A DNA stretch of 64,000 bases from Haloferax sulfurifontis ATCC BAA-897. GTDB lineage: Archaea > Halobacteriota > Halobacteria > Halobacteriales > Haloferacaceae. Positions within the stretch are counted from its first letter, which is position 1; each line of letters begins with the position of its first letter. The notes below the pieces were generated by a model. The model did no database searches and was not told the DNA's origin. It saw only the letters and a program-made list of their open reading frames with translations. The translations under genes were made by a program, and so were the position numbers. Location: NCBI RefSeq assembly GCF_000337835.1, contig NZ_AOLM01000022.1:1-64000 (forward strand). The letters run 5' to 3'. Shown here in pieces: positions 54,100-56,845 of the stretch.

Positions 54100-54705
54100 C
54101 TACAGTGACACGTCGGTCTCGATATCTTCTGTCGCCTCGCGGAGGCCGTCGCGTCGGGCGTCCTCGGCCAGCCGGTTCGAGAGGTCGTCGTCGGTCAACA
54201 GCTCCGCGAAGTCGTCGCGGAAGCGGTAGTTGGCCCGGCTCGAGCGGATGTCCGCCTCGGCGGCGGGGCGGCACTCGGCGACGACTTCGACGGGCACGTC
54301 GAGCGTCTCGGCGATGGTCTCGTCGTCCGCGCCGTCGACGAGCAGGTTGTCGAAGCGGTCGGCGTCGAACGGGAACTCGCGGTCGGCGTCGCGGACGAGA
54401 TGGAGGTCGAACCGGGCGGTGCGAACCGCCTCGGGCGACGCGTCGAGTTCGACCGCGAGGTCGGCGTCGGAGTCGCCGTCGAAGAAGCCGACGACGAGCG
54501 CGACGAGCGCGTCGTCGTCGAAGCCGGTCTCGAACGCGTAGCGCTCGCGCATCGTCGCCACGGTGTCGTGGACGCGCTCGCGGACCGCTTCGGGGTCGTC
54601 CACGTCGGCGAGCGACCCGCGCGACTCGGACTGCTGTTCGGTCACGGTGTCCGAGCCGGTCGCCTCGATGAAGATGTCGCGGAGCTCGGCGGTCTTTTCG
54701 TCCAT
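54100..54705 (-). CDS. Haloarchaeal regulator-like protein (Cmi4-like)
   Basis: A 201-residue acidic protein. It has helical repeats that look like two helix-turn-helix units (GFFDGDSDADLAVELDASPE and TIAETLDVPVEVVAECRPAA). By memory it matches conditioned-medium-induced protein 4 of H. volcanii, found next to mcm; I cannot check this here. It lies 53 bases upstream of mcm on the same strand and may be co-transcribed. Confidence 0.7.
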   Translation of the reverse strand: MDEKTAELRDIFIEATGSDTVTEQQSESRGSLADVDDPEAVRERVHDTVATMRERYAFETGFDDDALVALVVGFFDGDSDADLAVELDASPEAVRTARFDLHLVRDADREFPFDADRFDNLLVDGADDETIAETLDVPVEVVAECRPAAEADIRSSRANYRFRDDFAELLTDDDLSNRLAEDARRDGLREATEDIETDVSL

Positions 54706-54822
54706 ACCCGGAGAATGGCACGTCCAGCGTCTTTAATGATGCTGACCCGAGAGCCGCCGAGCGCCGGAGAGACGACTCGAATCGACCGACGAGGCCCGAA
54801 CCGGCTCCCCGGCCGCGAACTT

Positions 54823-54852
54823 CGTAAACCGATAGGTTAAACTGGGTTTACG
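54823..54852. promoter_or_regulatory. BirA-type biotin operator
   Basis: CGTAAACC (54823-54830) and GGTTTACG (54845-54852) are perfect inverted arms separated by 14 bases. This is the published BirA consensus for bacteria and archaea (TTGTAAACC-N14..16-GGTTTACAA) with changed outer bases. It ends eight bases before the bioY start codon, so binding would block transcription or initiation when biotin is sufficient. Confidence 0.8.
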
Positions 54853-54860
54853 AGACAGCG

Positions 54861-55445
54861 ATGGGCATGGCAACCGAACGCGAGTCTGTCGAACTCGTCG
54901 GCGACGAACTCGTCGGCAACATCGCCCGCGCCGCCCTGTTCGCGGCGCTCATGGGCGCGGGCAGTTACGTCTCGTTCCCGAACCCCGTCTCGCCGATTCC
55001 GGTGACGATGCAGGTGCTCGTCGTCTTCCTCGCGGGCATCTTCCTCGGCCCCGTCTGGGGCGGCGGCTCCATCGCGCTCTACCTCGTCGCGGGCGGCCTC
55101 GGTGCGCCGGTGTTCGCCGGCGGCTCCGCCGGGTTCGCGCCGCTCGTCGGCCCGACCGCCGGCTACCTCTGGTCGTACCCCGTCGCCGCGGCCGTCGTCG
55201 GCCTCGTCGTCCACGGCGGCGTCGACATCGGCGACTACCGCGTGCGCACCGTCCGACTCGTCGGCGCGATGGTCGCGGGCACCGTCGTCGTCTACGCCTT
55301 CGGGACGCTCGGGTTCGCGTACGTCCAAAGCGTCGGCCTCGAATCCGCCTTCTGGACGGCCTCCGCCGCGTTCATCCCCGCCGAGGCGTTCAAAATCGCC
55401 GCCGCGGTCGGCATCGTCCGCTCCGACGCCATCGCCGCCCAGTAG
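54861..55445 (+). CDS. bioY: Biotin transporter S-component BioY
   Basis: A 194-residue integral membrane protein with six helices that binds biotin. The BioY pattern is clear: FAALMGAGSYVSFPNPVSPI, PVTMQVLVVFLAGIFLGPVW and LYLVAGGLGAPVFAGGSAGF, then GPTAGYLWSYPVAA. It works with the ECF ATPase and T-component encoded next. The bioM ATG starts right after its stop. Expected to be repressed by BirA through the operator upstream. Confidence 0.94.
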   Translation: MGMATERESVELVGDELVGNIARAALFAALMGAGSYVSFPNPVSPIPVTMQVLVVFLAGIFLGPVWGGGSIALYLVAGGLGAPVFAGGSAGFAPLVGPTAGYLWSYPVAAAVVGLVVHGGVDIGDYRVRTVRLVGAMVAGTVVVYAFGTLGFAYVQSVGLESAFWTASAAFIPAEAFKIAAAVGIVRSDAIAAQ

Positions 55446-56147
55446 ATGATTCGCGTCGAGGGACTCGTCCACCGCTACGGCGACACGGTCGCGGTCGACG
55501 GGGTCGACCTCGCCATCGACGACGGCGAGTGCGTCATCGTCGCGGGCGCGAACGGCTCCGGCAAGACCACGCTCGTCCGGCACTTCAACGGCCTGCTCGA
55601 CCCCGACGAGGGGACGGTCTCGGTCAACGGCCGCCGGGTCGCCGACGACCTCGTCGCCGCCCGGACCGCGGTGGCGATGGTGTTCCAGCGCCCCGAAGAC
55701 CAACTGGTCGCCGCGACAATCGGCGCTGACGTGGCGTTCGGCCCGGAGAACCTCGGCCTCGACCGCGACGAGATCGACCGCCGCGTCAGCGAGTCGCTGG
55801 CCGCGGTCAACCTCGACGGCCGGGAAGACGAGCGCGTCGACGCCCTCTCCGGGGGCGAAGTCGAACGCCTCGCCATCGCCGGCGCGCTGGCGATGCATCC
55901 CGACCATCTCGTCTTGGACGAGCCGTTCACCGGCCTCGACGAACTCGCCCGGCGCTCCGTGCTCGCCCGCCTCCGGGACCTCCGCGCCGAGGGCACGAGC
56001 CTCGTCGTCGTCACCCACGACCTGCGCGACGTGGCCGAGTTGGCCGACCGCGTGGTCGCCCTCGCCGACGGAGACGTCGCCCTCGACGCCGCGCCCGACG
56101 AGGCCGCAGACCGCCTCCCCGACCTCGACGTTCGCCCGCCGTGTTGA
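55446..56147 (+). CDS. bioM: ECF transporter ATPase BioM
   Basis: A 233-residue ABC ATPase. Walker A ANGSGKTT, Q-loop VFQRPEDQLVA (the ECF-type Q-helix), signature LSGGEVERLAI, Walker B LVLDEPF and switch His in VVTHDLRD are all present. With BioN and BioY it drives biotin uptake. Haloarchaeal ECF systems usually have one or two ATPases; only one is here, so it probably works as a homodimer. Confidence 0.93.
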   Translation: MIRVEGLVHRYGDTVAVDGVDLAIDDGECVIVAGANGSGKTTLVRHFNGLLDPDEGTVSVNGRRVADDLVAARTAVAMVFQRPEDQLVAATIGADVAFGPENLGLDRDEIDRRVSESLAAVNLDGREDERVDALSGGEVERLAIAGALAMHPDHLVLDEPFTGLDELARRSVLARLRDLRAEGTSLVVVTHDLRDVAELADRVVALADGDVALDAAPDEAADRLPDLDVRPPC

Positions 56148-56845
56148 CCTACGAGCCGGGCGACAGCCTCGCCCACCGACTCGACCCGCGGACCAAGCTC
56201 GCGGTGCAGGTCGCCTTCGCGGCGGCCGGGTTCGCGCACACGACGCCCGCCGGGCTCGTCGTCCTCGGCGCCGTCGCCGCGGGCTGTCTCCGCGCCGCCG
56301 ACACCTCACCGGTGTCCGCCCTCCGCGACCTCCGCTATGCGATTCCGTTCCTCGCGCTCGGCCCGGTCGTCGAGGCCGCCCGCCTCGGCGCGCCGTGGTT
56401 CGACCCCGAGGCGGCCGTCGAACCGGCGCTCGCCAGCGTCCGCGTGCTTTTCGTCTTCTTCGTCGCGGCGGCGTACGTCAGGACGACGCCCGTGCGCGAG
56501 TCCCGCGCGGCGATTCAGCGACTCGTGCCGGGTCGCGTCGGCGTCGCGCTCGGCGTCGGCGTCGCGCTCGTCTTCCGGTTTCTCCCCTTGATCCGCCGCG
56601 ACCTGCGTCGCGTCCGCGAGGCGCAGGCGGCCCGCCTCGGGAGCGAACGGCGGCTGGACGAACGGCTCTCGCTCGTCGCCACCGGCGGCCTCCGGCGGTC
56701 GTTCGCGCGGGCCGACGCGCTCGCGCTCGCCCTCCGCGCGCGGTGTTTCGCGTGGAACCCGACGCTCCCCGAGATTCGGTTCGACCGGCGCGACGCGCCC
56801 GGACTCGTCCTCGCCGCCGCGCTCCTCGCCAGCCTCGCGCTCTGA
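56141..56845 (+). CDS. bioN: ECF transporter T-component BioN
   Basis: A 234-residue membrane protein, GTG start overlapping the end of bioM by seven bases. It shows the EcfT N-terminal pattern YEPGDSLAHRLDPRTKLAVQ, then about four to five helices and the cytoplasmic coupling region with Ala-Arg-Gly-like motifs (REAQAARLGSERRL, ALALRARCF). It couples ATP hydrolysis to substrate release from BioY. Last gene of the biotin operon. Confidence 0.88.
   Translation: MLTYEPGDSLAHRLDPRTKLAVQVAFAAAGFAHTTPAGLVVLGAVAAGCLRAADTSPVSALRDLRYAIPFLALGPVVEAARLGAPWFDPEAAVEPALASVRVLFVFFVAAAYVRTTPVRESRAAIQRLVPGRVGVALGVGVALVFRFLPLIRRDLRRVREAQAARLGSERRLDERLSLVATGGLRRSFARADALALALRARCFAWNPTLPEIRFDRRDAPGLVLAAALLASLAL

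Follow-up and report, generated by a model that had tools for sequence, protein, structure and literature searches.

The inverted repeat at positions 54822-54853 of the 64,000-nucleotide stretch of Haloferax sulfurifontis DNA analysed here (the window) is very probably the operator of a bifunctional, group II BirA controlling the bioYMN biotin uptake operon, with a switch of BirA between ligase and repressor and occlusion of the BRE and TATA elements as the proposed mode of control. The initial annotation had described perfect 8-base arms around a 14-base spacer at positions 54823-54852, where the window reads CGTAAACC-GATAGGTTAAACTG-GGTTTACG. These arms are present, and the palindrome is longer by one base on each side. 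The inverted repeat is therefore perfect over 9 bp, with arms at 54822-54830 and 54845-54853, TCGTAAACC-N14-GGTTTACGA (no strand assigned), while the slightly wider segment 54821-54854 reads TTCGTAAACC-GATAGGTTAAACTG-GGTTTACGAG. The published BirA signal is TTGTAAACC-N14/15-GGTTTACAA, as stated in PMC545781, which cites Rodionov 2002. The claimed identity with this signal holds, since all seven core positions match in each arm, around an N14 spacer and with 0 mismatches.

Searching the whole window for GTAAACC-N14-GGTTTAC with up to 3 mismatches returned the bioY box as the sole match, at 0 mismatches, with 0.45 matches expected by chance. The genome scan that the initial annotation had proposed gave a similar picture: in the 3.81-Mb Haloferax genome the bioY box is the only perfect copy; the runner-up differs at 2 positions, and sites with 1 mismatch are absent. 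At ≤3 mismatches the genome contains 36 sites, compared with 32 for a reversed control pattern. Because the 35 sites other than the bioY box (2-3 mismatches) are about as frequent as the control sites, they were rejected as further regulon members and no other member is claimed. The regulon in this genome thus consists of an apparent single target in the sequence. As for autoregulation of birA, the scan gave no box with ≤3 mismatches at the birA start.

Directly downstream of the box lie three contiguous or overlapping genes on the plus strand. They are bioY (54867-55445; PF02632, 1.2e-35), encoding a biotin-specific S component; bioM (55446-56147; PF00005, 3.9e-27), encoding an ECF-type ATPase that in NCBIfam matches energy-coupling factor ATPases best, under their cut-offs; and bioN (56141-56845; PF02361, 3.4e-12), encoding an ECF T component of the CbiQ family. 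The locus therefore has the full set of a BioYMN ECF biotin transporter, namely a BioY S component with an adjacent ECF ATPase and T component. No match over cut-off was found for bioB or bioD in the Haloferax sulfurifontis genome, which is consistent with a biotin auxotroph relying on uptake. The box had been placed eight bases before bioY, which is true for ATG 54861, from which the bioY open reading frame is also open. However, when 12 Haloferax sequences are aligned, ATG 54867 is invariant and ATG 54861 is variable. Invariance in this alignment extends to the whole left arm, to the TATA-like core within the spacer and to most right-arm positions. ATG 54867 is thus the likely bioY start; 13 nt separate it from the end of the 9-bp arm and 15 nt from that of the 7-bp core, so that the core lies 15 nt 5' of a biotin transport gene. 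Among 86 promoters of haloarchaeal bioY genes with an in-frame start nearby, this core-to-start distance is 15 nt in 54 and 14 nt in 26. It is noted that the divergent neighbour of bioY (54100-54705, minus strand) begins MDEKTAELRDIFIEATGSDTVTE and has no Pfam or NCBIfam match. A homologue of this neighbour, with an MDEKT..LRDIF start, is likewise divergent from an adjacent bioY in several further haloarchaeal families (L075, L079, L081, L293).

The spacer of the box appears to hold the core promoter of bioY. A TATA-like TTAAA is located at 54837-54841 on the plus strand, at -30 to -26 of ATG 54867. The corresponding TTNAW occupies exactly spacer positions 7-11 in 49 of the 86 bioY promoters and is seen at 0 of the nine other offsets tested. 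A putative BRE-like element, CGAT, spans the junction of left arm and spacer (54830-54833, plus strand); the left arm ends in CGAA in many relatives, resembling the haloarchaeal BRE, CGAAA (PMC4983044). A second type of target allows the position of these elements to be compared. In relatives, most other sites with ≤1 mismatch overlap the bioB start (M/VVYETGN...), also in H. mucosum and H. marisrubri, giving two predicted BirA targets in relatives with bioB. Relative to the bioB start codon the box there reaches from about -19 to +9, which leaves a TTTAT-like element at -30 to -26 outside it. The distance from TATA-like element to start codon is therefore equal in bioY and bioB, despite the different position of the box. 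Since the element keeps step with the start codon rather than with the operator, it can be identified as the predicted TATA box. A constant distance of this kind is expected for leaderless mRNAs, which account for 72% of protein-coding transcripts in H. volcanii (PMC4983044), and leaderless initiation at bioY is presumed from the transcriptomics of that species. The presence of bioB with a BirA box in the close relatives H. mucosum and H. marisrubri (L288, L289), set beside the lack of an over-cut-off match here, suggests a patchy distribution of biotin synthesis in the genus.

On this layout the bioY operator would span both the BRE and the TATA element of a leaderless promoter, and bound BirA should exclude TFB and TBP. 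We lean, with some reserve, toward a general form of this arrangement, in which the haloarchaeal BirA operator is merged with the core promoter: the half-sites would frame the BRE and TATA of bioY, in direct competition with TFB/TBP, and the start site would be covered instead at bioB. If true, this would be an order-wide case of one bacterial-type metabolite-sensing repressor with two archaeal repression modes. Alternatively, BirA may repress in a way that does not involve covering the BRE and TATA elements, for instance if the start site is elsewhere and TTNAW is not a TATA box. Such a mode would fit the bioB box, which covers the start site and not the TATA element, and the difference in placement between the targets. 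However, the TATA-like-to-start distance shared by bioY and bioB, matching that of leaderless mRNAs, makes it rather unlikely.

The regulator required by an operator of this kind is encoded in the genome. Two proteins belong to the biotin/lipoate ligase superfamily; one is lipoate-protein-ligase-like and the other is the sole biotin protein ligase, a protein of 368 aa (G000:C12:150131-151234) with the N-terminus MSDTRRALLDALAAGPVSGPELADRLGVSRAAVWKHVESLRDEGFGVESSDDGYVV. It contains HTH_11 (PF08279, residues 7-54, over cut-off), BPL_LplA_LipB (PF03099) and BPL_C (PF02237), and it matches the solved BirA of S. aureus and E. coli across the HTH and the ligase domain. This fusion of a biotin ligase domain to an N-terminal HTH makes it, as judged from its domain architecture, a group II BirA. 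The initial annotation had been staked on two points, a DNA-binding domain in BirA and a box conserved before orthologous bioY. Both were found, the former as the N-terminal HTH_11 of the single biotin ligase. The repressor-domain model TIGR00122 gives 52.5 bits for this protein against a curated cut-off of 70, a cut-off under which nearly all archaeal BirA proteins, HTH-bearing, score and which is exceeded in only 2 of 148 genomes of the phylum. The birA gene is located 66 bp downstream, on the same strand, of a gene with the C-terminal biotin-acceptor motif EAMKMEN. It should be mentioned that a low-complexity Ser/Ala/Asp-rich insert of ~55 residues (about 176-232) separates the KWPND and KLCG motifs (L011, 922-2028, minus strand) and splits the ligase-domain match in the HMM search.

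An HTH with an SR-A/N-A-WK helix is kept in 69/69 haloarchaeal BirA N-termini read, and among the genomes listed the best BirA match starts at query residue 1-3. In 195 Halobacteriales genomes, BioY is present in 176 and BirA in 183, and the 12 genomes that lack a BirA match are all part of the 19 in which BioY was not found. BirA doubles as the ligase, and for this reason co-occurrence alone is no proof of binding. A further connection comes from methanogens. Several of them have the box directly 5' of bioY, as in G202 with TTGTAAACC-N14-GGTTTACAA, and in several (e.g. G206, G238, G264 and G293) the order is birA, box, bioY. This adjacency links box and BirA without recourse to the motif match. 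At bioY of many HTH-bearing methanogens no N14 box was found, and other spacings may be in use there. The few genomes with BioY and a ligase but without a TIGR00122 match also have no N14 box at bioY; with ~7 informative genomes and an insensitive TIGR00122 model, this contrast between box and HTH-less ligase across the phylum was dropped as proof.

A real operator of biotin genes could in principle be read by another HTH protein, with the HTH of BirA being vestigial, and the genome is rich in HTH proteins, with 65 HTH_11 matches at E ≤0.1. Nevertheless, the box is the BirA signal known from bacteria, the recognition helix is kept in every one of the haloarchaeal N-termini read, and birA adjoins the box and bioY in the methanogens named above. 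Taken with these observations, a different reader is highly improbable, and BirA is the preferred one.

The comparison with upstream regions of other haloarchaeal bioY genes, also suggested at the outset, shows how strictly the box is kept before orthologues. GTNAACC-N14-GGTTNAC with ≤1 mismatch is present in 97 of 110 bioY upstream regions from ten families and in 0.045% of dinucleotide-shuffled regions. When spacer lengths from 8 to 22 were tried, N14 gave these 97 regions and every other length ≤4; permitting N13 and N15 as well raises the count to 102/110. Four genomes of family f14 that seem to be without a box have it with N13; G008 has lost the right arm and carries an in-frame stop in bioY. 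Although a lone intergenic inverted repeat is weak evidence by itself, a fortuitous match or a terminator-like hairpin without regulatory function is refuted by the conservation of arms and strict spacing with free spacer bases across ten families, and the uniqueness of the perfect match in the genome and the lack of a T run after the repeat likewise leave it a negligible probability.

The arms are fixed by family, being mostly GTAAACC/GGTTGAC in f12 (Halobacterium), GGAAACC/GGTTTAC in many f7 genomes and GTCAACC/GGTTGAC in f17. No simple BirA residue was found to account for these family-specific differences. A one-residue code, relating arm base 3 (A or C) to the BirA recognition helix (SRAAVWK or SRNAVWK), was considered and rejected, as f17 pairs N with C/G boxes whereas f5 has C/G boxes with A. 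A second biotin-ligase match beside the HTH-bearing BirA was noted in G027, G056, G064 and G072 (family f12, genus g35), in line with the BPL plus BirA reported in Halobacterium sp. (PMC3199775).

The preferred model of BirA control can be described by analogy with the known proteins. The BirA proteins of E. coli and B. subtilis act as repressors in their dimerised, biotinyl-5'-AMP-bound state (PMC4016012). By family resemblance, binding of BirA to the box, dependence on a co-repressor and repression of bioYMN would be expected in Haloferax. As long as an unbiotinylated acceptor is present, BirA would work as a ligase and the bioYMN operon would be expressed. Once the biotin acceptor proteins are all biotinylated, BirA would retain biotinyl-5'-AMP, and the loaded protein would dimerise and bind the two half-sites 14 bp apart. 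Bound BirA would then block the assembly of TFB and TBP on the leaderless bioY promoter, turning biotin import off. With the operator over BRE and TATA, exclusion of TFB/TBP would be the simplest mode of repression.

The bioY box can be regarded as a very well supported further case, by sequence, of an already published signal. The title of Rodionov, Mironov and Gelfand 2002 covers Eubacteria and Archaea, and prediction of the signal in Archaea dates back to that year. In the literature searched, mostly without subscription papers, we found no experimental study of haloarchaeal BirA regulation. To the known signal the present analysis adds a corrected bioY start, a regulon with apparently one target, the operator-in-promoter layout and the different placement at bioB. 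The result is a strongly supported prediction of vitamin control in an archaeal genus that is amenable to genetics, with one operator, one regulator and one operon, so that the archaeal BirA regulation predicted in general terms in 2002 becomes directly testable in Haloferax.

We have compared the predicted system with those described before. The BioYMN of Natrialba magadii, named in PMC3403918, has the same three genes in the same order as the predicted Haloferax transporter, with no notable difference. The group II ligases of E. coli, B. subtilis and S. aureus share with Haloferax BirA the order of N-terminal HTH, ligase and C-terminal domain; the extra ~55-residue low-complexity insert sets the Haloferax protein apart from all three. 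As for the operator, the signal of Rodionov 2002, as quoted in PMC545781, has in common with haloarchaea the 7-bp core GTAAACC/GGTTTAC, the N14 spacer, the targets bioY and bioB, and a group II BirA. The GTCAACC/GGTTGAC variant of other haloarchaea is also given for Geobacter. In contrast, the outer arm bases are TC/GA in haloarchaea and TT/AA in the published signal, and one haloarchaeal family uses N13 in place of its N14/15. A further difference lies in what the operator encloses, which is bacterial promoter boxes for the bacterial BirA operator and a predicted archaeal BRE and TATA for the haloarchaeal one; the bioY box would thus be a bacterial-style repressor site fitted onto an archaeal promoter.
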